From: Thermodesulfovibrionales bacterium
GTDB lineage: Bacteria > Nitrospirota > Thermodesulfovibrionia > Thermodesulfovibrionales > UBA9159
Direction of reading: 5' to 3'
DNA: 32,566 nucleotides
NCBI GenBank assembly: GCA_035686305.1
Contig: DASRZP010000138.1
Location: forward strand, 1-32,566
Each line of letters begins with the position of its first letter. Positions within the stretch are counted from its first letter, which is position 1. The notes under the pieces are model-generated. The model did not search any database, had not been told where the DNA came from, and saw nothing but the letters and a program-made list of their open reading frames with translations. The position numbers and the translations under genes are program-made. Shown here piece by piece: positions 16,998-32,317 of the stretch.

Positions 16998-17000
16998 GTC

Positions 17001-17435
17001 CTAGAGCTTGAGAAGGGTTAATCCCGACAACGGATCAAACTCCCTGACGGCTGTTACGCCGTTGATCTCCATAATCAGGGCCTCAAGCACGAGGAATGTT
17101 TCTGACTTTTCTCTCAGACACCCCACTTTTATGGAATCCCTCTTTCCAAAGGCGCCGTGAAAATGGACCTTCGGCTCTTCTCCCTGATAGAAGACCGTGC
17201 CGAAGCCGACTATCTCGTGGCTCTCGCCGAGTTCCCTCCAGACAGGGACGGGAGGCAACTCTTCGTTTTCAGGACCGACAACAATCTTCCCCTCGCGCAT
17301 CCCTCCGACGAGATAGAATGCGGCGGCCCGTATGTTCTCTTTCTTGACGATCGTGATGATGTTCCCCAAAACGTCTTCCTTATCCTCAAATCGGGATACT
17401 ATAACCCTGCCTATCTGACCAACCTGGTATTTCAT
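17001..17435 (-). CDS. PPC/DUF296 domain protein
   Basis: The 144-residue protein is a stand-alone PPC domain (plants and prokaryotes conserved, DUF296). In plants this domain is joined to AT-hook DNA-binding motifs; bacterial single-domain members form trimers and their role is not settled. Visible family features are the N-terminal strand VIVSRFEDKEDVLGNI, the AAAFYLVGGMREGKI block, EIVGFGTVF, and HFHGAFG with His91 and His93, which with His73 may bind a metal. No AT-hook is present. A GGAGGG site precedes the ATG. It is the first gene of an operon with the histidine kinase, whose start lies 3 bases after its stop, so it may act in the same signalling pathway, but the sequence does not show how. 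Confidence 0.9.
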   Translation of the reverse strand: MKYQVGQIGRVIVSRFEDKEDVLGNIITIVKKENIRAAAFYLVGGMREGKIVVGPENEELPPVPVWRELGESHEIVGFGTVFYQGEEPKVHFHGAFGKRDSIKVGCLREKSETFLVLEALIMEINGVTAVREFDPLSGLTLLKL

Positions 17436-17630: not shown

Positions 17631-19802
17631 GTGTTTCTTCGTAGAGTCCTCATGACGCCTACCGCCGCAGGGCTTATCAGCATTGCATTATCAGGCGCCT
17701 TCCTTTTCTCGTTCCAGCTCATGCCTCTTTACGGGGAACAGGTTCCTCCGACGATGCCCCAGGCGCAGCCGAACAACCTCTTTGCGCCAGGTGCTCCATT
17801 GACTCAACCTCCTGCGAGACCGGTCCAGCAACCTTCTCAACCGGCGCCTCAGAGTCAGCCGGCAGGTCAGCCGACTTTCCCGATGCCTCAACCACAGCCG
17901 GTCCGGCCTCAGCAACAGCCTGCTCCGGCTTCTCAGCTTGCTCCTGTCCAACCCCAATTTCAGCCGCAGCAAATCGCGCCGCAGCCTGCTCCACCCGTTG
18001 CGACGAGACCTGCCGTTAAGAGGGGCGAAGTCAGCTTTAACTTCGATGACGCCGACGTTTTCTCGGTGATACAGACCATCTTTGGCGATGTCCTCAAGGT
18101 GAATTACATTGTGGACCCCAGTGTCAAGGGGAGGGTCAATTTCCGTTCCGTAGCGCCCGTTGCGAAAGAAGATGTTCTGCCTCTCATGGAAGTCATTTTG
18201 AGGCTGAACGGTATCGGCGTTGTCGAAGAAGGCGGCCTCTACAGGATCGTTCCTATTGCAGACATATCGAAGGAGCCTGCTCCCGTGGGAGTCGGGAGAG
18301 ATTCGGGAAAGGTCCAGATTACAGGAAAGGCACTGGTTCAGGTAGTGCCGGTGAAGTATGTCCAGTCCTCGGAGATGGTGCGGGTACTGACCCCGTTCCT
18401 CTCAAAAAATGCGGTGATTATCGACGTGCCCAAGAGCAATTACATCATCATATCCGACACCGATGCCAACGTGAGGCGGTTACTCCAGCTCGTCGATATC
18501 TTCGACAGCGAAGCGCTGAAGCAGATCACTCCACAGGTCTTTGTTTACGCTGTTCAGAACGGCAAGGCAAAGGACGTTGCTGCCTTGCTTCAGCAGATAT
18601 TCCTCGGTGCAAAGGCGCCGGCAGGTGCAGCCAAACCGGCGACAACACCACAACCGAGACCGGGACAGCCGGCTCAGCCTCCAACCGGTCAGCCTCAGGT
18701 ATCTATGGGTCAACCGACGGGAGAAGCCCTTGTCTCAGAGTCAACAAGGATAATCGCCGACGAGATTACAAACTCCATCATAATCCTTGCGACGCCTGAA
18801 GACTATGCACTTATGGCTGATACACTGACGAAGATCGATATAGCGCCGAGGCAGGTGATCATCGAAGGACTCATTGTCCAGGTAACTCTGACTGATAACC
18901 TCAGTTTCGGAACGACGTGGTCATTCAGTACCGATGTCAATATAAGCGGGTTGAAACCCTTCAAAAACCCGATCAACCTCAACGGGGACGTTACGACGGG
19001 TCAATCTGTGGACTCCTCCGGCAATTTAGTGCGGCCTTCAGGAGGAGGGTTCACATTTGTGGGCACGGACCCGACCGGTACTGTCAGGGCCGTCATTAGT
19101 GCCTTAGAAGATCAATCGAAGGCGAAGGTCCTGGCAGCGCCTCATATCCTTGTATCCGACAACCGGGAGGCGAGGATCCAGGTGGGATCTCAGATTCCGA
19201 TCGCTACATCAACGAGCGCTCAACCGACTGCAACGACCGTAGGCGGTGTAACTACGACAACTACAACGGCCGTCGTCGCCACTTCTACGATCCAGTACAA
19301 AGACATAGGTATCATCCTCAAGGTGAAACCCCAGGTGAATGACAGCGGGCTGATTGCCCTCGAGATATCACAAGAGATATCTTCTATAGGGGGGAGCGTG
19401 ACTGTCGGAGGCCTTCCCGAAATCACTATCAATAAGATAGAGGCGACAACGAATCTTGTAGCACAGGACAAGGAGACGATCGTTATCGGCGGACTCATAA
19501 GGGAAGATACATCAGCTGACAAGACTGGGATTCCCTTTTTGAGCAGGATCCCTATCATCGGTGCTCTCTTTGGTAACCAGAGTAATGTGAACACTAGAAC
19601 AGAACTCATCATCCTTCTCACTCCTCGTGTTGCAAGGAACCAGCAAGAGGCGCGGGAAGTGACATCGGATTATCTCGACAGGTATAAGGCCACGACCAAG
19701 GATAAAGATATAGATGATTTCATACGCGAAAGAAGTGAAAGAGAACAGGGCGGCAAGGATGCAGGAAGCAAGGCTCCCAAAAACAGTACCCCCCAGCCAT
19801 GA
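17631..19802 (+). CDS. gspD: Type II secretion secretin GspD
   Basis: GspD forms the outer membrane channel of the type II secretion system. The 723-residue protein starts with GTG, well spaced from GGAGGAG, and has a signal peptide to about residue 36. Residues 38-128 are an unusual Pro/Gln-rich linker. The N0 domain follows at 134-212 (VSFNFDDADVFSVIQTIF), then N1 at about 233-293 (VKYVQSSEMVRVLTPFLS), and one more N domain at about 300-404, interrupted by a second Pro/Gln-rich insert at 329-364. The secretin core covers 405-665, with the gate and beta-barrel pattern (ETIVIGGLIREDTSADKTGIPFLSRIPIIGALFG) and a Thr-rich loop near 540-547. It seems to have one N domain fewer than the usual four, by eye. 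The rest of the gsp genes lie 7.6 kb away on the opposite strand. Confidence 0.94.
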   Translation: MFLRRVLMTPTAAGLISIALSGAFLFSFQLMPLYGEQVPPTMPQAQPNNLFAPGAPLTQPPARPVQQPSQPAPQSQPAGQPTFPMPQPQPVRPQQQPAPASQLAPVQPQFQPQQIAPQPAPPVATRPAVKRGEVSFNFDDADVFSVIQTIFGDVLKVNYIVDPSVKGRVNFRSVAPVAKEDVLPLMEVILRLNGIGVVEEGGLYRIVPIADISKEPAPVGVGRDSGKVQITGKALVQVVPVKYVQSSEMVRVLTPFLSKNAVIIDVPKSNYIIISDTDANVRRLLQLVDIFDSEALKQITPQVFVYAVQNGKAKDVAALLQQIFLGAKAPAGAAKPATTPQPRPGQPAQPPTGQPQVSMGQPTGEALVSESTRIIADEITNSIIILATPEDYALMADTLTKIDIAPRQVIIEGLIVQVTLTDNLSFGTTWSFSTDVNISGLKPFKNPINLNGDVTTGQSVDSSGNLVRPSGGGFTFVGTDPTGTVRAVISALEDQSKAKVLAAPHILVSDNREARIQVGSQIPIATSTSAQPTATTVGGVTTTTTTAVVATSTIQYKDIGIILKVKPQVNDSGLIALEISQEISSIGGSVTVGGLPEITINKIEATTNLVAQDKETIVIGGLIREDTSADKTGIPFLSRIPIIGALFGNQSNVNTRTELIILLTPRVARNQQEAREVTSDYLDRYKATTKDKDIDDFIRERSEREQGGKDAGSKAPKNSTPQP

Positions 19803-20060: not shown

Positions 20061-20516
20061 TTGCGTAAGCATGATATAACTTTTGAAAGAGTCGCATTTA
20101 CCTTTATTTTTTTCTTGATTATTTTTTCCGGATGTGCTAAAAAAGAGGCTATAAAAAGCGTAAGTGATGAAGAGGTTTTAAGAGGGCGGGTGACGGCTTA
20201 CTGGAACCATAAAGTGAAAGAAGAGTTCGATAGGAGCTATGAGTACGAGGATCCTCTCTATAGAAAAAAGGTTGGTCTCGTGAATTACATCAAGAGCTTT
20301 AATACCGAACGCGCAGGATGGACGAATTCCGCGGTAGAAGGCTTGAAAATCGAGAACGAGTCTGCTATAGTTGATATGAAGTTGAGGGTCAGGATTGTCG
20401 TGAAGCCTTCGAAGAATCTTGAGCAGGATGTTTTATTAAAGGAGAAGTGGGTAAAGGTTGACGGAATATGGTACCATGTTCCGCAGCAGTTTATGGAGCG
20501 TCGGAGCACTCATTGA
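20061..20516 (+). CDS. Small lipoprotein of unknown function (possibly NTF2-like)
   Basis: The 151-residue protein begins with TTG at 20061; there is no in-frame ATG before the hydrophobic segment. Residues 1-24 form a signal sequence and Cys25 (FSGC) is a likely lipidation site, although Phe at the third position before Cys is atypical. The mature part contains EEVLRGRVTAYWNHKVKEEF and ends LKEKWVKVDGIWYHVPQQF, the alternating strand pattern and closing Trp-rich strand seen in NTF2-like periplasmic domains. The family is not recognised. The gene is clearly richer in A/T than its neighbours, and stands alone between its own strong promoter and the next gene's promoter. A role at the inner or outer membrane in the neighbouring secretion system is possible but unsupported by sequence. 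Confidence 0.7.
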   Translation: MRKHDITFERVAFTFIFFLIIFSGCAKKEAIKSVSDEEVLRGRVTAYWNHKVKEEFDRSYEYEDPLYRKKVGLVNYIKSFNTERAGWTNSAVEGLKIENESAIVDMKLRVRIVVKPSKNLEQDVLLKEKWVKVDGIWYHVPQQFMERRSTH

Positions 20517-20604
20517 TCGTTAGGTGTTCCTTGGTGATGCAGAAGCCTTTACCGGAAAAAACTAGAAAAAGGAGGTGATGGGGACAGGAGGCAATAAGCA
20601 GTTC

Positions 20605-20632
20605 TTGACATAGAGTGTTTTTTCTGTCTAGT
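20605..20632 (+). promoter_or_regulatory. Candidate promoter of the 440-residue secreted protein
   Basis: A perfect TTGACA at 20605-20610 is followed after 16 bases by TCTAGT (20627-20632), which matches the -10 consensus at four of six positions. Transcription would begin near 20639, about 30 bases before the start at 20669. The -10 element is weak. Confidence 0.35.
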
Positions 20633-20668
20633 GAATCGGAGAATTTTATCAAAAAAGGAGGAAGGTAA

Positions 20669-21991
20669 ATGTCAAAGAAAGCAGTATTAATGGTTTTCGC
20701 GGTCATCCTGGTCGCCTTCGGCGCTGCATCAAGCGCTCTGGCTATCGATGGCCTGACGCCGGCTTTTCCGGCGTATGTGAACCCGGGCGGGCTCGGGGAC
20801 TCCCTTATCTATGGGTATTACAATGTAAGAGGTAATGTTGACCTCTTCAACGTCGTGAATACCTCCGCAATAGACGGTGCAAAGGTGAGGGTTGTATTCA
20901 GGGCAGGCAAGAATAGTGAAGAAGTTCTTGACTTCAGTGTATGTCTCAGCAAGGGCGATGTCTGGACCGCATTCCTTACTGACAGCGGCTCCACAGCAGA
21001 AATATGCCCGGTGTTCGATACGGATACGGTTACGGCTCCTCAGATACCGGCGTCATGTAAGACGTTCCAGATACCTTCTGGTTCAAGCCTTACCGCCGAC
21101 GACCTCAGGGAGGGCTATTTTGAAGTGCTCGGGCTGACATCGATCCCCGGGTATGACAAGAACAGTACCACCGCTAATGCTAACTGTATCAACGTCCCCG
21201 GCAATTGCATCAAGACAGAGGTGGACTGCGCAAACTGGCAGAGCACCACTGCGACACAGGGAACCCCAGCCCCTGTTTTTGATGTTCTCATGGGTAATAA
21301 CACCATCATTAATCTCAGCACCCTCGCTACTTACAGCTACAATGCAACGGCTATCGCATATCCCACTGTTGCAGCTCCAGTCATTGATCCGGGACCGGGC
21401 CAGGAGGTGAGCCTCGTTGATGTCGACGTTATCGGCTGTGGAGTGGAGCTCAGCTTGGCGAAGACGGATCTCATTTCACCGTTTGACATCATCTCTGGTC
21501 TCGGCGCTGGTACCGAGGTGATCGTCACATTCCCGACGAGGAGGGCGTGTCACGCTTCTGCCACAATTCCTGGTGGTACCGACCTCGGCTTAGGCAATGG
21601 CTCCGGCAATCTCTTCACATGCAAGTCTTTCACGGACAACACGACTACAGGCGCCAACAAGAAATGCGCCGTATACGCAACGCCTGTTAGCGTTGTTGCT
21701 CGTGACGACAAGGAGAATTCCCTCAACATCCTTAACTTCTCACCAGCAGGTCAGTCCACTCTGCCGAACGAGGTCAATGTCCTCAATATTGGCGGCAGCA
21801 AGATATGGACGAGCACCCTCGAAGTCGGTGTTAGTGTCGGCTCCTTCCAGCTTGGCTGGGTGGATATCGATCTCACGAACAGCACCACGGCTCCGGATGG
21901 GTTACCGGCGCTTGGCTACACCACGCAGGCCCTTGTGGGCGGTAGTGTAAGCTATATGGTGCCGACAGCGTATAAATCACTCATACCTTAA
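20669..21991 (+). CDS. Cysteine-containing secreted protein of unknown function
   Basis: The 440-residue protein has a clear signal peptide (residues 1-25, cleavage near ALA) and an AAGGAGG site before the ATG. The mature part has ten cysteines, an even number, concentrated in 90-200 and 250-340, for instance CINVPGNCIKTEVDC. It starts with a segment containing YGYYNVRGNVDLFNVVNTS, followed by AKVRVVFRAGKNSEEVLDF, which looks like a beta-sandwich. The remainder is rich in Thr, Asn, Ser and Gly with low charge, as in surface or extracellular proteins. It has no transmembrane segment after the signal, no catalytic motif I recognise, and no anchor. A strong terminator follows at once, and the good ribosome site suggests abundant expression. 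A T2SS substrate or surface-layer component would fit; that is inference. Confidence 0.8.
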   Translation: MSKKAVLMVFAVILVAFGAASSALAIDGLTPAFPAYVNPGGLGDSLIYGYYNVRGNVDLFNVVNTSAIDGAKVRVVFRAGKNSEEVLDFSVCLSKGDVWTAFLTDSGSTAEICPVFDTDTVTAPQIPASCKTFQIPSGSSLTADDLREGYFEVLGLTSIPGYDKNSTTANANCINVPGNCIKTEVDCANWQSTTATQGTPAPVFDVLMGNNTIINLSTLATYSYNATAIAYPTVAAPVIDPGPGQEVSLVDVDVIGCGVELSLAKTDLISPFDIISGLGAGTEVIVTFPTRRACHASATIPGGTDLGLGNGSGNLFTCKSFTDNTTTGANKKCAVYATPVSVVARDDKENSLNILNFSPAGQSTLPNEVNVLNIGGSKIWTSTLEVGVSVGSFQLGWVDIDLTNSTTAPDGLPALGYTTQALVGGSVSYMVPTAYKSLIP

Positions 21992-22011
21992 ACATATCAC
22001 GGTTACGCACA

Positions 22012-22050
22012 AGAGAGGTGAGGGATATTTCCCTCACCTCTCTTTTTTTT
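22012..22050 (+). terminator. Strong intrinsic terminator
   Basis: AGAGAGGTGAGGGA at 22012-22025 pairs perfectly with TCCCTCACCTCTCT at 22030-22043 around a 4-base loop, followed by seven T. It ends transcription of the 440-residue secreted protein. Confidence 0.93.
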
Positions 22051-22072
22051 CTCTCACTAAACGATTTTCATG

Positions 22073-22118
22073 GAGTGTCAAAAAAGGTTAATTGGCTGCC
22101 GGTTTTTGGCACTCTTTT
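22073..22118. other. Second long hairpin in the same gap
   Basis: GAGTGTCAAAAA (22073-22084) pairs with TTTTTGGCACTC (22103-22114) over 12 bases with one G-U pair, enclosing an 18-base loop and followed by TTTT. It is not needed as a terminator because a strong one precedes it. It may be a backup terminator or the remnant of a small repeat. Apart from this hairpin and a candidate promoter, the stretch from 22051 to 22354 holds nothing I can support, and it is AT-rich. Confidence 0.5.
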
Positions 22119-22275
22119 CGGAGGGAAGACCCTAGTCATTTGGAGGGGAAACGTTGATTCAGAGTTAAAATCAATGTGTTGTTCCGTATTGACCGCATCA
22201 CAAGTCTCCGTTAGTATCTCGCATGGAACTTGCTCTGTTATTTTTATTATGTTTATTTCACAATTACGTTACAGC

Positions 22276-22305
22276 TTGAATTATGATTAAGGATTCACTT
22301 AATAT
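22276..22305 (+). promoter_or_regulatory. Candidate promoter of the Ig-like secreted protein
   Basis: TTGAAT at 22276-22281 and TAATAT at 22300-22305 are separated by 18 bases. Transcription would start near 22312, leaving about 43 bases before the ATG at 22355. Confidence 0.4.
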
Positions 22306-22354
22306 AGAGAGGGTTACTTATCAGAACGAAGCATCTCGCATGAAGGAGGAAAAG

Positions 22355-23221
22355 ATGAAAGCAAAAATGATTCTGCTTTCGGTAGTGATGGTGGCCGCTT
22401 TTGCGGCAAATGCGATGGCACAGGGCCTGACCATTCATTTTGGAGATGGAAAGACAATACCCTTTACGCGTACAGGTTCAATGACAGTTGATGATGCCGG
22501 AAATATCGATTTATCAGTCTCGGACCCGGTACCTGCTGGTGGCAACCCGGGGACGCTGTCACTTTCCCTCAGTCCAAATTCACTTCCCGCAGCAACGCAA
22601 GGCATTCAATATAGTCAGTCCGTGACGATGTCTGCGTCCGGTGGCAGCGGCTCTGGCTATATCTATGGCTGCTCAGGGTCTGGTGTTGCGGGGATAACGG
22701 CATCGGCGAGCGGTTCAAACGGTTCACCATGTGTCATAAGCGGTACCCCGACAGCGACCGGCACATACACTGTCAGTTTCAATGTCATGGATTCATTAGC
22801 CGCTCAAGCTGCAAACTCCGTATCTTTTAACGTCAATCAGTCCGGAGGCGGGAACACCGGCGGCGCTACACTGCTCGCCGAGGGACCCAAAGTCAGTATG
22901 CAGATTGCCGCCTCGGGGGAGAACGATTTTTATTTTACCCTTAACAGGGCCGTTAGCATGGTTCAGGTCTATATCACGACGATGGACTGGCAGACAAATC
23001 AGGATCTGCTGGTAAGCGACGTGGCACAGCCGTCATGCAGTGTTGCAGTGGGAAGCTATAGTCTACCTCCCAGTCCTGCTCCCTGGTATGTTGTGACAGC
23101 ATCGAGCAACGAAACGGTCAGCATTAGAAAGAGCTTCTCCGCGGGCACGACAATCTATGTCACTGTCTGCAACCGCTCAAACACAGCGGGAAGTTACGCG
23201 ATTTACTGGAAGGGATATTAA
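22355..23221 (+). CDS. Secreted protein with Ig-like domain
   Basis: The 288-residue protein starts at 22355, where AAGGAGG is 5 bases upstream and a signal peptide follows directly (MKAKMILLSVVMVAAFAANAMAQ); an open frame extending to 22283 adds nothing export-like. Residues 60-160 resemble a putative Ig/cadherin-like domain of the He_PIG type (LPAATQGIQYSQSVTMSASGG, then ISGTPTATGTYTVSFNVMDS). A Gly/Asn linker leads to a C-terminal beta-sandwich of about 100 residues (FYFTLNRAVSMVQVYITTMDW, then GTTIYVTVCNRSNTAGSYAIY) that resembles a pre-peptidase C-terminal type fold. There are four cysteines and no anchor. A strong terminator follows. It looks like an extracellular or cell-surface adhesive protein; substrate of the neighbouring T2SS is possible. 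Confidence 0.78.
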   Translation: MKAKMILLSVVMVAAFAANAMAQGLTIHFGDGKTIPFTRTGSMTVDDAGNIDLSVSDPVPAGGNPGTLSLSLSPNSLPAATQGIQYSQSVTMSASGGSGSGYIYGCSGSGVAGITASASGSNGSPCVISGTPTATGTYTVSFNVMDSLAAQAANSVSFNVNQSGGGNTGGATLLAEGPKVSMQIAASGENDFYFTLNRAVSMVQVYITTMDWQTNQDLLVSDVAQPSCSVAVGSYSLPPSPAPWYVVTASSNETVSIRKSFSAGTTIYVTVCNRSNTAGSYAIYWKGY

Positions 23222-23280
23222 GGACGATGTTTTTTTCTGAACTATACCTCTGAAGAGTTGCGGTTGAAAGAGATTAACTA

Positions 23281-23308
23281 AAGAGGGGCGCTCAGCCCCT
23301 CTTTTTTT
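23281..23308 (+). terminator. Intrinsic terminator
   Basis: AAGAGGGGC at 23281-23289 pairs with GCCCCTCTT at 23295-23303 around a 5-base loop, followed by a run of T. It ends the transcript of the Ig-like secreted protein. Confidence 0.9.
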
Positions 23309-23353
23309 GTCTTTCTACGTCACAATCGTCTGCCCTTCGCCATGATCCTTTAT

Positions 23354-23383
23354 TTGAAAAATGAAGGCACGATTTGCTATCAT
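23354..23383 (+). promoter_or_regulatory. Candidate promoter of the parvulin gene
   Basis: TTGAAA at 23354-23359 and TATCAT at 23378-23383 are separated by 18 bases. Transcription would start near 23390, giving a leader of about 75 bases before the ATG at 23465. Confidence 0.4.
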
Positions 23384-23464
23384 GTCCGCATCGCCACCTC
23401 AGCAATCTCTTCATACCTTTGAGGAGACGTCAAAAAAAGAGTCTGTAAAACGAGGAGGTTTTTT

Positions 23465-24340
23465 ATGAACAGAGTAATCGGAGCAACCGTTGTGCTTTTC
23501 GTTATGCTGTGCGCTCAGGCATTCGCCTCGGATGATACGGTCCTCGCCAAGGTAGGTGACAAGACGATCACCATGGCGGATTTTATGAGGATCGTCGGAT
23601 ATTATGATGAAGATAAACAGAAGCTCTTGGAGCATCAGCCGTCTTACAAGATAGTGATCCTTAAGAGGATTGTACAAGGCATGGTTATCGCTCAGATTGC
23701 CAAAGAAAAGGGATTCGACAAACGGCCTGATGTGAAGGAACAGGTCGAATTACTGGTCAATGATTTTATCTCATCGGATTTTCTTAAAAAAGAGATCCTG
23801 GAGAAGATAACCGTCACAGAAGACGACATGCAATTGTACTATAAGACCCACAAGGAAGAGTTTACGACACCCGCTATGGTGAGGGCGCGGCACATCTTGA
23901 TTCATGTCGACAAGTCGGCGTCCAATGACATGAAGGAGAAGGCAAAGGCAAAGGCGGAGGATATCTTGAGAAAGATAAAGACAGGGGAGGACTTTGCAAA
24001 ACTCGCTGCCGAGTTCTCAGATGACCCGGGCTCTAAAACAAACGGTGGAGACCTGGGCTTCTTCCCGAAGGGGAAGATGATGCCCGATTTTGAGAAGGTT
24101 GCATACTCTCTGAAACCAGGCGAGGTAAGCGATGTCTTCGAGACACCATTGGGATATCATATCGCAAGAGTCGAAGAGAAGAAAGAGTCAGTCATCGAGC
24201 CTTATGACAAGGTGAGAGATAAGGTGAAGGACAAACTCTTGGCTGATTTCAGGAAGGCACGCGCAGAGGAATTCCTCGATAAGGCTATGAAAGAAAACAA
24301 TGTGGAGTTGAATCTCGAACCTCTTTTACAAAAAAAATAG
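23465..24340 (+). CDS. Periplasmic parvulin-type peptidyl-prolyl isomerase
   Basis: The 291-residue protein is a PpiC/SurA/PrsA-like foldase that catalyses cis-trans isomerisation of proline bonds and helps exported proteins fold in the periplasm. A signal peptide covers residues 1-22 (cleavage near AFAS). An N-terminal helical chaperone part with VGDKTITMADFMRI leads to a rotamase domain at about 137-240: VRARHILIHVD, the helix EDFAKLAAEFSDDPGSKTNG, then GDLGFFPKGKMMPDFE and the closing TPLGYHIARVEEK. The C-terminal helices complete the SurA-like fold. GAGGAGG lies just before the ATG. A role in folding the exported proteins encoded on both sides is likely from context. Confidence 0.93.
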   Translation: MNRVIGATVVLFVMLCAQAFASDDTVLAKVGDKTITMADFMRIVGYYDEDKQKLLEHQPSYKIVILKRIVQGMVIAQIAKEKGFDKRPDVKEQVELLVNDFISSDFLKKEILEKITVTEDDMQLYYKTHKEEFTTPAMVRARHILIHVDKSASNDMKEKAKAKAEDILRKIKTGEDFAKLAAEFSDDPGSKTNGGDLGFFPKGKMMPDFEKVAYSLKPGEVSDVFETPLGYHIARVEEKKESVIEPYDKVRDKVKDKLLADFRKARAEEFLDKAMKENNVELNLEPLLQKK

Positions 24341-24440
24341 TATCTTTGCCTCTTCTCATTGATAATTGGTGCCCCTGCAAAGCGTGAGTGACCTTCGTTT
24401 TCCCTTTCCTTTTTTAAGATGATACAATGAAATAAAATGT

Positions 24441-26705
24441 ATGGGTCGGGGAAAGAATAAGAAAATAACGCCTGACGCGAGTCAGGCAGGATCCAATAAG
24501 AACCGGTTTTTTGCAATCGCCCTCGTATTCATTTCCCTTTGCATCGCCTATTCAAATTCCCTGAACGGCACCTGGGCCATGGACGATTTCTATGTGAACA
24601 GGGCCTTTGGAATTCACGATATCCATGACATCGTCGGCTTCAGGAAGGTCACCTATATAACGTTCCTCCTGAATCACTATGTCGCACCTTTTACCCCCGC
24701 CAATCTGAGACTCTTCAACATCTTCATCCATTTCCTCAATGCCCTTTTTCTGTATGTGCTCGCCTACAAGACAATACTGCTCAGCCTCAGGGTACGTGGC
24801 GAGACACTAAAAGGAACGGAGAGAGGTGAGGGTAACGGAGGCGACTCTTTACAGGGGAGGCTCGCTTTCTCTGTTGCCGCACTCAGCAGTATCGTTTTTG
24901 CCCTCCATCCGATCAATATCAATGCCGTCTCCTACATCGTCCAGAGGGCAGCCTCCCTTGCAGCGCTCTTTGTGCTCCTCTCGCTCCTCTGCTATCTTTG
25001 GGCGACGCTATCGAGGAGAACAGGGGTTGCTCTTCTGTTGTATGCCCTGAGCGGATTCATGATCGTCTCCGGCATTCTGTCAAAGGAGAACGCTGTCATG
25101 GCTGTGCCTCTCATTATGCTCTACGATTATATTTTCCTCTCGAACTTTGACCGCAAGGTTTTCTTAAAGAGATTTGCCATTATCTGTGGTATAGGGGGAG
25201 TGGCCATCGGACTGAGTTCGTACTTCATGAAGTTTCACTTCACCGTCGGCCAAATAATCGGGTTTCTCATGAATCCGAATCAGCCCCTTAAGGAAACGGG
25301 ATGGATGGCTGTCGATGTTTATTGGACACCCATCCAGCATATCCTTACGGAGTTCAGGGTCATCTCGAGGTATATCGCTTTGATTCTTTTCCCCCTTCCC
25401 CAATTCTTTGTCTTTGACTGGTGGGGGTTCCCTGTATCGAAGGGGTTGACAGAGCCGATAACCACGGTAGCGTCAATGATCTTGCTGATGGCGCTTACGA
25501 TTCTTGCAATAGTGCGAATGAAGCGTTATCCCTTGCTCTCCTTCGGGGTCCTCTGGTATCTCATCGCACTCTCACTCGAGAGTTTTGTTGCCCTCGGTTC
25601 TGACCTCTATTTCGAGCACAGGAACTACCTCCCGGTGTCGGGGCTGTTTATTGGGATCTTCGGGCAGATATTCGTATCGTGGAAGAAGACGTTTAGCGAC
25701 AAGACACTATGGACGATGATGGTCGTTCTGGCCATGATCCTTGGATCCCTGACGTTCTCAAGAAACACGGTCTGGAAAGACTCGCTGAGTTTGTGGCAGG
25801 ACAGTCTCAGAAAAGCCCCCTCAAATGTCAGGGCCATGATGGCTGTAGGGAATGCATACCTGAAGGTCCCTGACTTTGCGAAAGCCAAGAAGTATTATAA
25901 CGAGGCTGTCAGGACAAGCATCGAAAACAGGTGGCTCTCTTCTTTCAATGCTGCCGTTTTCCGGCTGGGGATGGCCTATTTATTCGAAAAAAACCTCGCG
26001 GAGGCGAGGAAGCTTATTGATTCAGCAAAGGCACAGATCGATTCTTACAACCTCAGGATCCTCGAAGGTTTTTACAAGGCCCTCAGTGGCAGACTTGATG
26101 AGGCCCTGGAGAATTACAACAAGGTCTTGCCTGAAACATCAGGCGTCGACAGAGTTGTTGTGCATGAGCTTAAGGGTGACGCGTACAGAGAAAAGGGGAT
26201 GTGGGACGCTGCGATCGAGAACTATAACAAGGTGATCGCGCAGGACCAGAGTTTTGCATCTGCCTATTACGGCATCGGCATGGCGTATCTCGGCAAGAGA
26301 AATATTGCTTCAGCCCTTGAATACATTGATCGGGCATTGTCTCTCGAACCTAACAATATCCTCGCCCTTTCCGACAAGGCCGATCTCATGCTTATCACAA
26401 AGAAGGCTAGGCCTGAAGAGGCGCTTCTTTATGCCCAGAGGGCAATCTCAAAGTCCCCGCCCTTTTATCAGCCCTATCTGACTATGGGAGCGATCCTTAC
26501 GATCCTCGGAAGGGAGAAGGAGGCGGATGATTCCTATAAGAAGGCCGTGGAGCGCAAAGCGCCGGACTATATGGTACCCCTCAGCAGGGCACGGGCATAC
26601 TACATAAAGGGCGATCCTGAAAAGACCAGGTATTATCTTTCGGAAGTCCGTAAATACCGGCTGCCCGAGAATGTCAAAGCCATGCTGCAGCAAAACCAGC
26701 CCTGA
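24441..26705 (+). CDS. Membrane GT-C-like protein with C-terminal TPR repeats
   Basis: The 754-residue protein has about ten membrane helices in its first 430 residues and TPR repeats from about 455 to 740. The N-terminal half resembles the TMTC/ArnT-like GT-C fold: an acidic pair after the first helix (WAMDDF, Asp48-Asp49), ALHPININAVSYIVQRA at 154-170, and SKENAVMAVPLIMLYDY at 214-230. These positions match known GT-C features for lipid-linked sugar transfer. TPR examples are AMMAVGNAYLKVPDFAKAKK and ALLYAQRAISKSPP. In animals TMTC proteins O-mannosylate cadherins; bacterial members are uncharacterised, so O-glycosylation of exported proteins is a reasonable but unproven idea. No good ribosome binding site is seen before the ATG; a TACAAT at 24423-24428 raises the possibility of a very short leader. 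Confidence 0.85.
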   Translation: MGRGKNKKITPDASQAGSNKNRFFAIALVFISLCIAYSNSLNGTWAMDDFYVNRAFGIHDIHDIVGFRKVTYITFLLNHYVAPFTPANLRLFNIFIHFLNALFLYVLAYKTILLSLRVRGETLKGTERGEGNGGDSLQGRLAFSVAALSSIVFALHPININAVSYIVQRAASLAALFVLLSLLCYLWATLSRRTGVALLLYALSGFMIVSGILSKENAVMAVPLIMLYDYIFLSNFDRKVFLKRFAIICGIGGVAIGLSSYFMKFHFTVGQIIGFLMNPNQPLKETGWMAVDVYWTPIQHILTEFRVISRYIALILFPLPQFFVFDWWGFPVSKGLTEPITTVASMILLMALTILAIVRMKRYPLLSFGVLWYLIALSLESFVALGSDLYFEHRNYLPVSGLFIGIFGQIFVSWKKTFSDKTLWTMMVVLAMILGSLTFSRNTVWKDSLSLWQDSLRKAPSNVRAMMAVGNAYLKVPDFAKAKKYYNEAVRTSIENRWLSSFNAAVFRLGMAYLFEKNLAEARKLIDSAKAQIDSYNLRILEGFYKALSGRLDEALENYNKVLPETSGVDRVVVHELKGDAYREKGMWDAAIENYNKVIAQDQSFASAYYGIGMAYLGKRNIASALEYIDRALSLEPNNILALSDKADLMLITKKARPEEALLYAQRAISKSPPFYQPYLTMGAILTILGREKEADDSYKKAVERKAPDYMVPLSRARAYYIKGDPEKTRYYLSEVRKYRLPENVKAMLQQNQP

Positions 26706-26779
26706 TGAGGATTCATAGCGTCTTCATGATTTCCTGATAAGATCAAGCTGTGTAAAAGAGTTGCGTCGAGAAGGAGGTG

Positions 26780-26878
26780 ATGAAGCTTATCGCATATGTT
26801 TATGTAAGAGACACGCAAGGGAGAGAAAGGGGTAGGGTACAATATTCATGTATCTATGAAAGGAGATCAAAGAAATGA
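26780..26878 (+). other. Possible 32-residue open frame behind a very strong ribosome binding site
   Basis: AAGGAGGTGAT at 26771-26781 is fully complementary to the usual 3' end of 16S rRNA. The ATG at 26780 overlaps it, too close for normal initiation, and opens a 32-codon frame (MKLIAYVYVRDTQGRERG start) whose TGA overlaps the ATG of the next gene. It may be a leader peptide for translational coupling, or chance. No homology recognised. Confidence 0.2.
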
Positions 26879-27201
26879 AAAAGCTCGCTTTGATACTTTT
26901 CGCAATTTTTTCGATTGCGGTCTTGATTTCTTCGAACACTGAGGCAACCACATTTGAAGCCGATTCTCCAGCCACTGGGGATTTCATGTTAGTATTCAGC
27001 GCAGCAAGCATCGATGGGTACAGTCATGCTGTTGCAACCTTCAACAATGTCGATAACACCGCCTTTGCCGTTGTACTCGATCCGTACGGCGTGCCTGATT
27101 CTGTTCCCTATGGATATGCCTATCTCTTTGCCGACTACTACTATCATCAGCTCTGGGGTTCAAACGACGGAGTGAATTGGTATGTAATTGGAAGTATTTA
27201 A
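26875..27201 (+). CDS. Small secreted protein of unknown function
   Basis: The 108-residue protein has a signal peptide (MKKLALILFAIFSIAVLISS, cleavage near TEA) and an AAAGGAGA site 8 bases before the ATG. The mature domain of about 80 residues has alternating hydrophobic strands and is rich in Tyr, Asp and Val, with FADYYYHQLWGSNDGVNWYVIG at its C-terminus (longest shown part abbreviated by its key Trp and Tyr residues). It has no cysteines and few charges other than Asp. The pattern WGSNDGVNWYVIG recalls discoidin/F5-8 or BNR-type repeats, but the protein is too short for me to place. It follows the GT-C/TPR gene by 169 bases and is the last gene of the plus-strand group before the convergent gsp operon. 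Confidence 0.7.
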   Translation: MKKLALILFAIFSIAVLISSNTEATTFEADSPATGDFMLVFSAASIDGYSHAVATFNNVDNTAFAVVLDPYGVPDSVPYGYAYLFADYYYHQLWGSNDGVNWYVIGSI

Positions 27202-27398: not shown

Positions 27399-28175
27399 TT
27401 ATCTTCCTCGTCTAAAGAAGTCGAGGAACGTCTTCCGTGCGTCTTCCGATGATGCAGGCTGTCCTGGTTGTGCAACAGGCTGAGCCGGCTGAGCAATGGG
27501 TTGTGCCGGTTGTGCAACAGGTTGTCTCGGCTGTGGAGCAGGCTGGGGTTGGACCTGAGGAGGCGCCTGTGCCGCTGGAGGGAAAGGTTGTTGTTGCGGC
27601 TGTCCTGGAACTGTCCCAGGCTGCTGAGGGGCGCCGGGAGCAGCAGGAGAGCCTTCCCTTGTCTTCGGTTTCATCGACTCGTTCAGTTGCACCGTCATGG
27701 TTTCCTCTCCCCTCACCATAACAACCTTCGTCGCCTCGATCTCCTTCAGGGTGAAGCCGCTCAAGGTGTCACCCTTCTTCAGGGATATCTGGCGCTTGCC
27801 CCGTCCGGCAGTCGTCTGAGGCGCTTTCTTGTCTTCCATATAAGCCACGACAGTGTCGCTTGTTATCAACGTTCCGTAAAGCACGAATTCCGGCGTCGGA
27901 AGGGGCTGCACCGGGGGCTTGTCCACAGGTATCTTTCTATCCGGGTGGAAGAGGTTCTGCTCTCCTATGATCACGTAATCCTGCGGTGAAGGGGCCTGAC
28001 TCTGAGGATGGGTTTCCTCTTTTGCCGTCTCAGACTTCTTTGCCGGTTGAGCCGTATATCTGACGTTCATGTTGAACAAGGGTGGAACAATATAGCCGGC
28101 GCACGTGATGACGACGATCATGAGGACAATATTGAGGACAGTCAGATTTCTCGTTAGAATGTGCAAAAGGCGCAT
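27399..28175 (-). CDS. gspC: Type II secretion protein GspC-like, with Pro/Gln-rich tail
   Basis: GspC is the inner membrane clamp that connects the T2SS inner platform to the secretin. The 258-residue protein has a short cytoplasmic start, one membrane helix at about 10-31, and a homology region at about 66-165 (NLFHPDRK, PEFVLYGTLITSDTVVAYMED, ISLKKGDTLSGFTLKEIEA) that fits the domain which contacts the N0 domain of GspD. Instead of the usual PDZ or coiled-coil domain, residues 171-240 are a Pro/Gln/Ala-rich tail with repeats such as AQPAQPIAQPAQPVAQP, then a basic end (FLDFFRRGR). It is the last gene of the gsp operon, one base after gspM. The assignment rests on the helix plus homology region and operon position. 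Confidence 0.85.
   Translation of the reverse strand: MRLLHILTRNLTVLNIVLMIVVITCAGYIVPPLFNMNVRYTAQPAKKSETAKEETHPQSQAPSPQDYVIIGEQNLFHPDRKIPVDKPPVQPLPTPEFVLYGTLITSDTVVAYMEDKKAPQTTAGRGKRQISLKKGDTLSGFTLKEIEATKVVMVRGEETMTVQLNESMKPKTREGSPAAPGAPQQPGTVPGQPQQQPFPPAAQAPPQVQPQPAPQPRQPVAQPAQPIAQPAQPVAQPGQPASSEDARKTFLDFFRRGR
27456..27548 (-). repeat. Short in-frame repeats encoding the Gln-Pro tail of GspC
   Basis: Within gspC, codons for residues 210-240 form imperfect tandem repeats built on a Gln-Pro-Ala/Val-Ala-Gln-Pro theme, visible on the plus strand as repeated TGTGC/TGAGC, GG and TTG/CTG units. Such tracts may vary in length between strains by slippage. Confidence 0.6.
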
Positions 28176-28176: not shown

Positions 28177-28728
28177 TCATTTCCCCGCCGTCAGCGCCGC
28201 AACGTCTAACTTTACGGTAAGTTCCTTCGGTTCCCGGTAGTTCCTTACCCTCGAGTCAACCTCTTTCACAACGAGGTATGGCGTCCGTGTCTCGATGGAG
28301 TAAAGGATGTCGCTCAGGGCCCTCGGATCGGGAAGAACAATGTCTACGCTGACGCTCACGATCTTGAATTTTCCGAGGTCCTCGGGCTTGCCGACACGCT
28401 CGCTCGATATCGTCCCCCCCCGGCCCATGACGATGCCTCTTACTCCGTCCTGCAGGGACGCAGCAGCGAGCGACAGGGTTTGGCCCTCTATGAGTTTCGA
28501 ATCATCAGCAGCCCTCGTATCTTTCAGCGAGGCAAGTTTCTTCTCTAGCTGGGGTTTTTCCGCTATAAGGGCGGTGTATTTTTCAAGGGTCCTTATCTTT
28601 ATCGCCTCGCTGTCCTTTATCGAGCCCATTTCAGTCCGGACCAGCACGTATCCGTACTGGTATATGACAAGTCCGAGAAGCAGGGCCATAACAGGTATGG
28701 CGAACTTAAGAGACCTATTTCTTTCCAT
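28177..28728 (-). CDS. gspM: Type II secretion protein GspM-like (PilO-like)
   Basis: The 183-residue protein has one N-terminal membrane helix (about 8-28, FAIPVMALLLGLVIYQYGYV) followed by a coiled coil (residues 40-75, with EKPQLEKKLASLKD) and a periplasmic ferredoxin-like domain (KIVSVSVDIVLPDPRALSDI, then YLVVKEVDSRVRNYREPKELTVKLDV). This is the layout of GspM/PilO, which binds GspL/PilN and supports the inner platform of the secretion motor. Its start overlaps the end of gspL by 14 bases, and its stop is one base before gspC, which fits the L-M-C order. Sequence conservation in this family is low, so the name rests on layout and order. Confidence 0.85.
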   Translation of the reverse strand: MERNRSLKFAIPVMALLLGLVIYQYGYVLVRTEMGSIKDSEAIKIRTLEKYTALIAEKPQLEKKLASLKDTRAADDSKLIEGQTLSLAAASLQDGVRGIVMGRGGTISSERVGKPEDLGKFKIVSVSVDIVLPDPRALSDILYSIETRTPYLVVKEVDSRVRNYREPKELTVKLDVAALTAGK

Positions 28729-30250
28729 TTTTTACGGTTGTCCCCTCGGCCTTTTTGATGCCTTCGATCTCCATCTTGATGATAAATCTATCGGAGTTCA
28801 TCCTTGCGTCCCTGAAGGTCGGAGATGCAAACTCGGCCTTCTTGAAGAAAGGCGATGCCTCGAGCTTCGGCAGGAGTTCTGTTGCCGAACCTGCGTATCC
28901 CTCAATTTCAACGTTTGTCTCGGTGATCCTGACCCGCGTGAGCCATGACGTCTTCGGAAGGACCGTTGTAAGCTCCTTGAGGATATTCAATGCCATCGGC
29001 CTGCTCTCCTTGAAGGCCGCTATCGTCGAGATATCGGTGTTAAGGGCGTCGATCTCTTTTTTCAGGTTCTCAACCTTCCTTGCCTCATCTTTCTTCATGC
29101 TGATCTGACGGTCAATATCTTCGAGCCTCTTACCTTCAATCTGGAAGGGAGTTACCATATAGGCGATCAAGAGGGCGATGACTGTGATGAGAAGGATAAT
29201 CGTAAATCCTACGGGCGCCTTCGATCTCTCATGACGTCCCATGGAGAAGAGATTCAATCCCCTCGATTTCGGCCACAGTGAGTCGACCATCCCTCCGAGA
29301 GAGGCGTAGGGGATATCTCTCTGTGACCCCGGGATCTTCAGGGCAGTCTCATCGAGGAGCGTGATCGGCAAAGACGCATGGAGTTTCAGCAATTCCTTCA
29401 ATGAAGGGCTCTTATCTCTGAGGAGAAGAATGACACGGGGGTCTCTTCCTTGCTGTTTCGCTGCATTGGTTAAGGTCTCGATTTCGCTTACGACGACATC
29501 AACCTTCGACTTTTCGTCGGCCCCCGCAAAACTGTCAGTCATCACTTCCGTCAATGCCCCCTCTGAAAAGAGCGCCCCTTCGTAGCCGTCCGCGCGAACC
29601 TCAATGAAAATCAGATCCCTCTTCTGCTCTCCATAGTGCAGAAGGGCCCCCATTCCGGAAAGATTGACTATCAACCTGCTGACAGTCAGTCCCTTTTCTT
29701 TCAAGGCGTTTAGATAGGGGTTTATCAGGTCGGCCTTTGCCGCTATGATCAACAGGGTGAGTTTGCCGTCAGTTTCCTTCAGTATCCCGAAGTCATAGTA
29801 GGCCTCTTCAGCTGCAAAAGGAGTCAGACGGTCCAGTTCGTACGAGACCACCTCAGGGAGGGTATCTCTCACAACAGAGGGCATCTCTGCAGTCCTGATG
29901 ATTGCCCATGCCTTAGGTATGCTGAGCGTTATTTCTGCCTTCGTTGCCCTCAAGTCACTGACGGCAAGTGCAGCCGAAGATGCAAGCTCCTCGGTTTGCG
30001 GGAATCCCGTCCCGTCAAAAGATTGCCTCTTATACCCGTTCAGTTTTAACCGGGAGAAAGACCGTGAGCCATAGGAAACAGAGACCTCTGCCCTTTCGAC
30101 AGCAACACAGACGCTCTTCTTGGCTGAGATTGCGTCATGGGCAGGGCTGAAGGTGAGGAGCCGCCAGAGAGGCTTCCCCATTCCCTTCAATCTTGCCGTT
30201 GAACCGGAGGCAAGCAACGAGAGTTTCTTGATCGATAATGCCTCACTCAT
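28715..30250 (-). CDS. gspL: Type II secretion protein GspL (PilM/PilN-like fusion)
   Basis: GspL is the bitopic inner membrane protein that recruits the GspE ATPase. The chosen start at 30250 (MSEALSIKK) overlaps the end of gspK by 8 bases; the open frame runs 65 codons further back without meaning. The 511-residue protein has a cytoplasmic actin-like part, residues 45-335 (VCVAVERAEVSVSYGSRS; ITLSIPKAWAIIRTAEMP; DTLPEVVSYELDRLTPF, which is the PilM/GspL signature), one membrane helix at about 347-366, a coiled coil at about 371-405, and a periplasmic PilN-like domain (SWLTRVRITETNVEIEGYAG). No gspE is in the window. Confidence 0.92.
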   Translation of the reverse strand: MSEALSIKKLSLLASGSTARLKGMGKPLWRLLTFSPAHDAISAKKSVCVAVERAEVSVSYGSRSFSRLKLNGYKRQSFDGTGFPQTEELASSAALAVSDLRATKAEITLSIPKAWAIIRTAEMPSVVRDTLPEVVSYELDRLTPFAAEEAYYDFGILKETDGKLTLLIIAAKADLINPYLNALKEKGLTVSRLIVNLSGMGALLHYGEQKRDLIFIEVRADGYEGALFSEGALTEVMTDSFAGADEKSKVDVVVSEIETLTNAAKQQGRDPRVILLLRDKSPSLKELLKLHASLPITLLDETALKIPGSQRDIPYASLGGMVDSLWPKSRGLNLFSMGRHERSKAPVGFTIILLITVIALLIAYMVTPFQIEGKRLEDIDRQISMKKDEARKVENLKKEIDALNTDISTIAAFKESRPMALNILKELTTVLPKTSWLTRVRITETNVEIEGYAGSATELLPKLEASPFFKKAEFASPTFRDARMNSDRFIIKMEIEGIKKAEGTTVKNGKK

Positions 30251-31202
30251 GGGCCACCTTTGCCGGGCTCTTGTAAGAGAGATAACTGAATTTGTTATTG
30301 CTCTCGATGAATATTGTCGCTTTGATGGGATGCCCCGTCTTCTCTGTTCCCTTATACCCAACTGCCTCAATGCTGAAGGAATTCGAAATAACGGGCAAGA
30401 GATACAACTGACTCTGCTGAGGGAACCCCGGGATCTCGTTGACACCCATGATCTCCTTGTCCTGTCGCATGGCTATGATCGCGTCGGCAAGCTCAGGCGT
30501 CATCCCGGGGACCGCCGCCATAAGCTCCTTCGAAGCTGCATTGACATTGATCTTGTCCCCGGTGCCGGGACTGATGGTGATGAACTCGATCAAGCCCTTC
30601 TTCTCACCGTCTCCATAAAGGATCTGGGGTGTAACTCCCTTCACGAGCAAGAGTTCTTCCAGGGTGTCGAAGTTTGCATTTTTTGCCTTGTAGGGGTTCG
30701 GAAGAGACATGTAGTAATCGCTCTCAGCGCCGTTCAGCCTGCGCAGATCGTCAGCGTCTTTCCAGTCGAGTATGGAATCCACAATCGTGTCCACGTCTTC
30801 GTCGCCCACCCCGAGATTTGTCAGAAGTTGTTTTAATATTATAGCATTTGCATCATTCATTGTGTTTATGTTGAACTTCCCTGACTCGTCCATGATGCTG
30901 ACCGTGTAGTATCCGTCACCGAAGTTGTCGGAATAGGGTGTCCCGTCCGTTTTCCAGACCTCCATCCCCTCGAGCAGTCCCTGGGGCTGGCCCTTGTTAA
31001 CCCTCCGGTAAAAGGTCTCAGCGATGCCCCGCTCGATTCCCGCCTCGGCAATAAATCTCTTCTGTATCCCTTCCTTGAACGATACGGTCGCTTGGGTCTC
31101 GGTCCGTGTTATGAATGAGAATGAAAGGACGATGACCATGAGGACCGTCATGACCCATAATACAAGGAGAAGGGCTATGCCCCTTTCTGTCCTTTCATGC
31201 AT
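30243..31202 (-). CDS. gspK: Type II secretion minor pseudopilin GspK
   Basis: GspK caps the pseudopilus tip with GspI and GspJ. The 319-residue protein has a short leader cleaved after Gly8 (MHERTERG) followed by a hydrophobic helix (IALLLVLWVMTVLMVIVL). As is normal for GspK, the helix lacks the Glu at position 5 found in other pseudopilins. The large globular part has the family signature DSILDWKDADDLRRLNGAE and a helix-hairpin-helix-like segment (INVNAASKELMAAVPGMTPE). It starts one base after gspJ ends and overlaps gspL by 8 bases. Confidence 0.95.
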   Translation of the reverse strand: MHERTERGIALLLVLWVMTVLMVIVLSFSFITRTETQATVSFKEGIQKRFIAEAGIERGIAETFYRRVNKGQPQGLLEGMEVWKTDGTPYSDNFGDGYYTVSIMDESGKFNINTMNDANAIILKQLLTNLGVGDEDVDTIVDSILDWKDADDLRRLNGAESDYYMSLPNPYKAKNANFDTLEELLLVKGVTPQILYGDGEKKGLIEFITISPGTGDKINVNAASKELMAAVPGMTPELADAIIAMRQDKEIMGVNEIPGFPQQSQLYLLPVISNSFSIEAVGYKGTEKTGHPIKATIFIESNNKFSYLSYKSPAKVAHE

Positions 31203-31203: not shown

Positions 31204-31848
31204 TTATCTCGCCACCGGCAGGGGCTGAGACCCTGTCAGCGTTGGCGTGAGGGTCCCTCTTGTCCTCATAGGGATGATCACCCCGAGTTCTTTCCTTCCG
31301 TCAGTAAGGTTGAGACGGATACTCTCGGGGATGCTGTTCGTATCTGTCCATTTGTCTGTCCATTTCCCTGTCTCGTCAGTAGGCTCTTTGTAGAAGTAGT
31401 CGAAGGAGATATCGTCATGAGGGGTCAGAAGGGTTGTCGCTGCGCCGCCCGCCAGTCCGACGATATTCTCTGACACCGCCAAGACCTTCTTCCCGTTCGC
31501 GTCGGTCTCCACCGTATAGGTGACGGTCACATAGCCCTTCTTCCCCCCCCAGATGGAGTAGTTCGTCGAGAATTGGAGGGAGTCCTTCGTACCCGTGAAG
31601 GTATATTTCTTGATGCCGTCGTCATCAAAGGTGAGGGGAATCTCAGACTGGATCTGGTAGTCGATAATATTCATGGATGACCTCATCCTTTCAAGAGACT
31701 CTATCCGTTTCTCTCCGGTGTCCACAGACCTGAATCCGAGCCTCATAGCGGCGGCGACAATGAGGATGATCACCCCGATGATGGCAATGGAGACGATCAG
31801 TTCAAGGAGCGTAAAGCCCCTCTGCCGATCGCATTTGTAGTTCCGCAT
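31204..31848 (-). CDS. gspJ: Type II secretion minor pseudopilin GspJ
   Basis: The 214-residue protein begins MRNYKCDRQRG with cleavage before FTLLELIVSIAIIG, including the conserved Glu at position 5 that pairs with the next subunit. The ATG at 31848 has GAGG 5 bases upstream; the open frame could begin at a TTG at 31872, which overlaps gspI, and is less likely. The body is a beta-rich pseudopilin domain with strands such as KDSLQFSTNYSIWGGKKGYVTVTY and a calcium-binding type acidic segment is not clearly seen. It is 7 bases after gspI and one base before gspK, the standard order for the tip complex GspI-GspJ-GspK. Confidence 0.92.
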   Translation of the reverse strand: MRNYKCDRQRGFTLLELIVSIAIIGVIILIVAAAMRLGFRSVDTGEKRIESLERMRSSMNIIDYQIQSEIPLTFDDDGIKKYTFTGTKDSLQFSTNYSIWGGKKGYVTVTYTVETDANGKKVLAVSENIVGLAGGAATTLLTPHDDISFDYFYKEPTDETGKWTDKWTDTNSIPESIRLNLTDGRKELGVIIPMRTRGTLTPTLTGSQPLPVAR

Positions 31849-31855
31849 CACAGCC

Positions 31856-32317
31856 TCATATCTTTTTCTCAACGGTTTTCAGCGTCCGCAAGGTTATCGC
31901 CCTTTCCTGTGTCCCCTTGGCCCAGGTGACTGTCACGACGATCTCGAGCAGCTTTACCTGCAGGTTCTCTGTCCTCTCTTTCATCGCCTCCGAGACCGAG
32001 ACGTCAATTCTGTAACCATCCTTTGTCCTGTCGGTCGATGATTTCTCAGTGAGTTTCTCATCAGCGAGGACCTCTCTCATCGCAGCATTGGCCTTAAGGC
32101 TGGCAGAAAGGTAATCCTCTGACGCAGCGATCGCCCTCAGATCTGCAGAGAAGAGCTGGAAGATAAGGGCCACAGCTGTAGCCAGGAGGGCAATGGAAAC
32201 GAGGACCTCGAGGAGGGTGAAGCCTGCCCGGGAATTACGCCTCGCAGCAAAGGGATCGAGAGCCCCATGGTCCCCCAAACGGTTATTCAAAATGGTGAAG
32301 CGTGGTCTCTGTATCAT
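31856..32317 (-). CDS. gspI: Type II secretion minor pseudopilin GspI
   Basis: GspI is a small pseudopilin of the tip complex that initiates pseudopilus assembly. The 153-residue protein has the prepilin peptidase site AG/FTLLEVLVSIALLATAVAL with Glu at position 5, then a short globular domain with SASLKANAAMREVLADEKL and a strand RIDVSVSEAM. The leader before cleavage is unusually long, 32 residues, if the ATG at 32317 is used; TTG codons at residues 10 and 14 would give shorter leaders. No good ribosome binding site is seen for any of them. It is 2 bases after the gspH stop. Confidence 0.9.
   Translation of the reverse strand: MIQRPRFTILNNRLGDHGALDPFAARRNSRAGFTLLEVLVSIALLATAVALIFQLFSADLRAIAASEDYLSASLKANAAMREVLADEKLTEKSSTDRTKDGYRIDVSVSEAMKERTENLQVKLLEIVVTVTWAKGTQERAITLRTLKTVEKKI

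Follow-up and report, generated by a model that had tools for sequence, protein, structure and literature searches.

What brings together, inside a type II secretion system (T2SS) gene cluster, genes for a lipoprotein, two secreted proteins, a foldase and a membrane enzyme of glycosyltransferase type? The question is raised by a 32,566-base contig of a Thermodesulfovibrionales bacterium (GenBank assembly GCA_035686305.1, contig DASRZP010000138.1; here contig C138 of the 3.23-Mb draft genome G000), which we analysed over its entire length and refer to as the window. An initial annotation, made from the letters alone, had described six open reading frames (ORFs) in a row on one strand and proposed that they fold, glycosylate and secrete the parts of a surface structure. 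All six ORFs are present where it placed them, and five of them form a conserved unit, with the sixth, a protein of 108 residues, outside it. We propose with moderate confidence that the locus is a second T2SS that delivers a pair of adhesin or matrix proteins, encoded in a dedicated cargo cassette between gspD and gspC.

The cassette and its surroundings are as follows.

20061..20516, plus strand: lipoprotein, constant cassette member with a predicted NTF2-like fold; lipobox ..FSGC with the cysteine at C25; TTG start as listed
20669..21991, plus strand: P1, cysteine-rich, beta-rich secreted protein of 440 residues with a signal peptide
22011..22044, plus strand: terminator-like hairpin after P1, a 15-pair stem followed by a T-run
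22283..23221, plus strand: P2, the slot-4 protein, with a variable N-terminal, Ig-like part, between P1 and the parvulin; its tail is common to slot-4 proteins
22892..23218, plus strand: PPC-like domain at the C-terminus of P2, constant among slot-4 proteins and matched by the tail profile A7
23280..23304, plus strand: terminator-like hairpin after P2, a 10-pair stem followed by a T-run
23465..24340, plus strand: periplasmic parvulin-type peptidyl-prolyl isomerase (SurA/PrsA/HP_0175-like; Rotamase_3 PF13616, E 2.5e-35)
24441..26705, plus strand: TMTC-like GT-C enzyme with multiple transmembrane segments, GT-C motifs and C-terminal TPRs (TPR_1/TPR_2, E<1e-20)
26875-27201, plus strand: small secreted protein, 108 residues

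A cassette conserved in two phyla

P1 homologues were searched in 60 relatives (8 P1-positive, 52 without P1) and in named genomes, where the matches fell in 'Nitrospirae'/Thermodesulfovibrionales metagenome-assembled genomes (MAGs), Candidatus Magnetocorallium and 'Deltaproteobacteria' MAGs. The lipoprotein gene adjoins P1 in all 21 of the 21 strong P1 loci. The order lipoprotein, P1, slot-4 protein, parvulin is kept on a single strand in 14 of the 16 loci that no contig end interrupts (the window, L059, L061-L064, L066, L067, L071-L074, L076 and L077), and these span Nitrospirota and Deltaproteobacteria MAGs. The exceptions are L060, with the parvulin gene ~6 kb off on the other strand, and L068, where the cassette is rearranged. 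Strong terminator-like hairpins follow P1 and P2, and the cassette is therefore probably not a single transcription unit but more than one. The 108-residue protein had been counted as a member of the set; its weak homologues occur in only 3 of the 60 relatives and at unrelated places, and we ruled it out because it is not conserved with the rest.

Among the six ORFs, Pfam gave names to the parvulin and the TPRs only. At the NCBIfam cut-offs, none of the lipoprotein, P1, P2 and the 108-residue protein was assigned to a family, and neither Pfam nor NCBIfam had a match at cut-off for the lipoprotein family, the P1 family or the slot-4 tail. An Rfam scan of the window found no RNA.

P1 does carry ten cysteines in its mature part, as first described, and its predicted model is mostly beta (pLDDT 76, pTM 0.82). 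A Foldseek comparison of this model with the PDB gave no match at E<1e-3; galectin/lectin-like beta-sandwiches appeared at E>1e-3 with low TM scores and were not used to assign a fold. Sequence searches of P1 and of the slot-4 tail against the PDB also returned nothing meaningful. The P1 alignment (A4) holds 19 sequences, with 18 homologues aligned. Distant P1-like proteins encoded beside gspD in three genomes (G001, G006 and G018) give an hhalign E of 2e-12 against the P1 profile and are likely related to P1; kinship is likely and not proven because the signal peptide contributes to the match and because the member in a fourth genome, G036, was found by its similarity to P1. Several P1 paralogues or fragments are present in G003 (contigs C18, C16 and C190), partly owing to contig breaks and possibly reflecting a multi-copy P1. 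At L068:6311-9875, in a divergent bacterial MAG, P1, the lipoprotein, a slot-4-like protein and the parvulin are all found in rearranged form.

The lipobox cysteine of the lipoprotein is conserved. Its AlphaFold model (pLDDT 88) matches NTF2-like folds in the PDB by Foldseek (E down to 5e-6, probability 1.0), so the protein is, as modelled, NTF2-like, a helix-capped curved beta-sheet. A classical pilotin (GspS/AspS) was considered and set aside, as there was no Pfam or NCBIfam pilotin match and the predicted fold is NTF2-like. Homology to the lipoprotein also sits in proteins of 576-637 residues (L101, L095, L096), and where the cassette is more divergent the lipoprotein is adjoined by FG-GAP beta-propeller proteins (L098, L094, L093, L056). 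Both features would be odd for a pilotin and fit a role at the outer membrane or cell surface.

The proteins found between P1 and the parvulin are of a different nature. They range from 238 to 1018 residues and their fronts are seemingly unrelated, while the last ~140 residues form one constant PPC-like domain. Pfam identifies InlB-like repeats in one of the fronts, and inspection by eye suggests TSP1-like, BACON- or FN3-like repeats in others. Iterated profile searches over all ORFs of the loci linked the slot-4 C-termini and no other ORF. The resulting profile A7, built from 13 tails with the window excluded, has a single match in the whole window genome, the C-terminus of P2 (E 5.1e-5), and the P2 tail aligns to the other slot-4 tails with an hhalign E of 2e-6. 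The ORF first read as an Ig-like secreted protein thus belongs to the slot-4 series. A full-length search had found few relatives of P2, and the idea that it is an unrelated one-off was overturned by the tail profile match. Translation of P2 probably begins at the ATG at 22355, which follows AAGGAGG.

The slot-4 tail is found in 5 of the 60 relatives, all of them P1-positive, and in 0 of the 52 without P1. Two genomes have an extra copy on another contig (G058:C99:77378-77752 and G003:C219:2618-3040), one of them in a 938-residue open frame; such copies away from the cassette are what would be expected of a sorting or assembly tag. PPC domains resemble the slot-4 tail in lying at the C-terminus of exported proteins. 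The gathering score of PF04151 (25.9 bits) was not reached by any tail, the best being 24.0 bits (E 7e-5), a sub-threshold match for 1 of the 13 members. The other 12 of 13 have no match, and in further contrast to PPC domains the slot-4 tails sit on non-peptidase proteins with variable fronts that are tied to P1.

The parvulin is the constant last gene of the cassette. The Rotamase domain confirms the isomerase first recognised here, and the nearest solved structure is HP_0175 (E 3e-21).

A second, divergent T2SS gene cluster

With gspD upstream and the putative gspC and gspM, L, K, J and I downstream on the opposite strand, the cassette is set inside a T2SS gene cluster, which we call T2SS-2.

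17631..19802, plus strand: GspD-2, secretin of the second T2SS and member of the P1-associated secretin clade (TIGR02517, 413.9 bits against a cut-off of 351.35)
27399..28175, minus strand: putative GspC of T2SS-2, with a single N-terminal transmembrane segment, adjoining gspM; assigned by position only
28177..28728, minus strand: GspM, subtype b (PF10741, E 1.7e-11)
28715..30445, minus strand: GspL-type protein with PilM/PilN domains (PF05137, E 6.6e-14; PF11104, E 2.2e-6)
30243..31202, minus strand: GspK minor pseudopilin (PF21687, E 1.4e-20; PF03934)
31204..31872, minus strand: GspJ-like minor pseudopilin (N_methyl, E 1.7e-9; weak T2SSJ, E 0.003)
31856..32317, minus strand: GspI-like pseudopilin (N_methyl, E 9e-7); the contig ends just beyond

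The putative GspC has no Pfam match, and its homologues adjoin T2SS genes in L043, L046 and L101. What T2SS-2 shares with known systems is a GspD above the TIGR02517 cut-off and homologues of GspM, L, K, J and I in one cluster. It differs in being divergent and the second of its genome, which has another T2SS operon, and in carrying putative cargo genes between gspD and gspC. The other gspD match of the window genome (C50:45792-47585, 541 bits) lies in an operon that also holds E-, F-, pseudopilin-, K- and L-like genes, and the two GspD proteins are only ~30% identical.

All cassette-associated GspD proteins group together in a tree of 45 secretins (clade support 1.0), separate from the canonical GspD clade, and this ties the cassette to a particular secretin lineage. 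The same clade takes in the GspD proteins encoded beside the distant P1-like proteins (G001, G006, G018, G036) and one further secretin from G033. Upstream of the cassette, gspD is encoded on its strand in 14 Nitrospirota loci, with two intervening ABC-exporter genes in L066 and L074, and the cassette is found between the clade gspD and gspC in the window, L073 and L074.

GspN, reported as a carrier of lipoproteins to the surface (PMC12802150), is encoded between gspM and gspC in the T2SS-2 of one relative (L043:4302-5084 in G029; TIGR04411, 92 bits against a cut-off of 50); the window has no separate gene at that position. Directly before gspD-2, at 12872-17435 on the minus strand, the window holds genes for a sensor histidine kinase, a sigma-54 response regulator and a PCC-domain protein. 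The PCC gene also adjoins gspD in G003 (L051). These genes are a possible regulator of the cassette.

The TMTC-like enzyme

Like the human O-mannosyltransferases TMTC1-4, the enzyme encoded after the parvulin combines a GT-C domain that has DD, KE, D-W and E..R..Y features with TPRs behind it. Its DD, KE, DxW and ExRxY residues are invariant in 9 orthologues and lie in external loops (DD in EL1, KE in EL3, D-W in EL4 and R..Y in EL5), the EL5 motif reading EHRNY against ERxxY. In the human proteins these sites are named as ligand-binding, and prokaryotic homologues have been noted that are mostly uncharacterised (PMC7801869). The present enzyme, whose activity is predicted from its motifs, differs from the human ones in being bacterial and in having no EC/cadherin substrate. 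It has no match to the Pfam TMTC domain at E 0.01, and we therefore file it as TMTC-like only.

The close subfamily of this enzyme is found in 5 of the 8 P1-positive relatives and in 1 of the 52 others (p = 6e-5 by a plain Fisher test, as for all co-occurrence values given here, and 1.5e-3 at genus level, a collapse that corrects for relatedness only in part). It is present in 5 of the 5 genomes with a slot-4 tail (p = 1e-6; genus level 4e-5). Across a phylum-wide sample of 245 genomes it occurs in 6 of 7 that are P1-positive and in 3 of 238 others (p = 2e-9; genus level 2e-6), and it is found in 7 of 14 further P1-positive genomes reached through their loci, all seven from Nitrospirota. The initial annotation had named a lack of co-occurrence across genomes as the outcome that would count against it; apart from that of the 108-residue protein, the genes are found to co-occur, both in this association and in their order.

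In L064 the stretch from the TMTC-like gene to gspD holds a gene for a glycosyltransferase-2 and one for a DUF2304 protein, and similar-looking genes, judged by position and by the start of their sequence, are at the same place in L073 and L074. Enzymes of the glycosyltransferase-2/DUF2304 type can supply lipid-linked sugars. Several further TMTC-type proteins are encoded elsewhere in the window genome (G000:C94:6662-39342; L102, L103), one of them beside a glycosyltransferase-2-like and a small DUF2304-like gene.

Human TMTCs mannosylate serine and threonine on beta-strands of the Ig-like domains of adhesion proteins (PMC11292533), which makes P1 and the slot-4 protein natural candidate substrates of the bacterial enzyme.

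Proposed cargo delivery and its alternatives

How might these parts work together? P1 and the slot-4 protein would enter the periplasm by Sec, while the lipoprotein would be acylated and go to the outer membrane. The dedicated parvulin, together with disulfide formation, would then fold the cysteine-rich beta-domains. In Nitrospirota, the TMTC-like enzyme may move sugar from a polyprenyl-phosphate carrier to serine or threonine residues on beta-strands of P1, of the slot-4 protein or of both. The GspD-2 machine would export the two proteins, the part recognised being P1, the PPC-like tail or both. Once outside, P1 and the slot-4 tail may together make up an unchanging foot from which the variable adhesive front is displayed, and the pair may be anchored to the cell through the NTF2-like lipoprotein, through polysaccharide encoded around the cassette in relatives, or through both.

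There are precedents for several of these steps. Dedicated chaperones are encoded beside T2SS cargo in Acinetobacter (PMC4713064), where LipB and CpaB share with the present parvulin the arrangement of a folding helper next to its cargo; they are membrane-anchored, whereas the parvulin has a signal peptide and belongs to a larger gene set. Delivery of surface lipoproteins by T2SS has also been described (PMC12802150). Our literature search found no account of such a cassette, most subscription papers being outside its reach.

Several observations weigh against the delivery of cargo by T2SS-2. The adhesive role is a guess, as P1 has no significant structural match, and the match of the P2 C-terminus to the slot-4 tails is real but weak (E 5e-5). 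Terminators split the cassette. The genes gspE, F, G and H of T2SS-2 would lie beyond the contig end, none being seen on the 32,566 bases. No gspD adjoins the four Deltaproteobacteria cassettes (L062, L063, L065 and L076), so the linkage to T2SS-2 is not universal; each of these genomes holds a gspD elsewhere. The close TMTC subfamily was not found in the same four genomes, nor in two P1-positive Nitrospirota draft assemblies (G256 and G263). Since the Deltaproteobacteria cassettes lack it, glycosylation appears to be an add-on and not part of the core. The fold-and-secrete part of the first proposal thus finds good support in the genomics (the conserved cassette, the constant parvulin and the gspD linkage), while glycosylation, from the distribution of the enzyme, is plausible as a feature specific to Nitrospirota.

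One alternative is that the TMTC-like enzyme acts on some other secreted protein, lipid or glycan and accompanies the cassette through shared lifestyle or co-transfer. This concerns the sugar-transfer step only, is compatible with the rest and is a serious possibility, though not the one we favour. It would account for the absence of the subfamily from all four Deltaproteobacteria cassettes, for the abundance of related TMTC-type proteins in these genomes, as on C94 of the window genome, and for G045, which has a close orthologue and neither P1 nor the slot-4 domain. It fits less well with the patchy joint presence of the enzyme and P1 in at least four families and with the position of its gene near the cassette gspD in the window, L064, L073 and L074, or on the same contig in G257; the predicted beta-rich nature of P1 also recalls the Ig-like beta-strands that human TMTCs modify (PMC11292533). 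The enzyme aside, the whole row might be a chance assemblage of unrelated secreted-protein genes. The separate terminators and the 108-residue protein, which is indeed unrelated, are in keeping with this, but an order kept in two phyla and the strict co-occurrence make it scarcely credible and already refute it for the lipoprotein, P1, the slot-4 protein and the parvulin.

The surroundings of the cassettes raise a further question. In Deltaproteobacteria, the L062 cassette lies in an exopolysaccharide locus (polyprenyl glycosylphosphotransferase, Wzz, O-antigen ligase) without gspD and a Wzz-like gene is near L076; the Nitrospirota loci are interspersed with ABC exporters and with PIG-L deacetylase, sulfotransferase and glycosyltransferase-2 genes. 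These neighbours suggest that the exported pair may work with surface polysaccharide, much as the matrix proteins of Vibrio cholerae do. They would equally suit P1, the slot-4 protein, the lipoprotein and the parvulin being periplasmic or outer-membrane helpers of polysaccharide export or assembly, with T2SS-2 a mere neighbour. We consider such helpers unlikely: in different families the cassette stays closely linked to one secretin clade, the slot-4 fronts are adhesin-like and change fast, which ill suits a conserved export factor, and the window has no polysaccharide gene cluster around the cassette. Less probable still is a place for the NTF2-like lipoprotein, and perhaps for P1, in the T2SS machinery itself, for example as a new kind of pilotin for GspD-2, and not in an exported assembly. 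Known pilotins are small lipoproteins, and a lipoprotein of outer-membrane type adjoins gspD in most Nitrospirota loci; yet the lipoprotein goes with P1 where gspD is absent (the four Deltaproteobacteria cassettes), its homology extends to the 576-637-residue proteins, and we know of no pilotin described with an NTF2-like fold.

For delivery of cargo by T2SS-2, one of the closest parallels is the biofilm matrix system of V. cholerae (RbmA, RbmC, Bap1 and the vps genes). Its T2SS-linked, FN3/beta-rich matrix proteins act with exopolysaccharide, and RbmD is an oligosaccharyltransferase-like protein that influences T2SS secretion (PMC6901666; PMC5605196). In V. cholerae, glycosylation affects T2SS secretion and biofilm formation (PMC6901666). 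The present locus differs in its constant/variable pair with a shared tail, its parvulin and its NTF2-like lipoprotein, and a relation in sequence was neither looked for nor found.

It is conceivable that a dedicated secretin clade reads the PPC-like tail, by itself or together with P1, as a transferable tag for export and assembly, and that these adhesin-like beta-domains are mannosylated by a bacterial TMTC before they leave the cell, which would be a bacterial parallel to cadherin O-mannosylation, linked to T2SS. Taken as a whole this extension is rather unlikely. The way in which a T2SS recognises its folded cargo has yet to be clarified (PMC7325957); here, next to a dedicated secretin clade, proteins with unrelated fronts share a constant tail, which opens the question of the tail as a signal to direct domain swap. 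The cassette further suggests which proteins a bacterial TMTC homologue is likely to target, and it gives a shared context to three unnamed families, P1, the NTF2-like lipoprotein and the slot-4 tail, in Nitrospirota including Candidatus Magnetocorallium.

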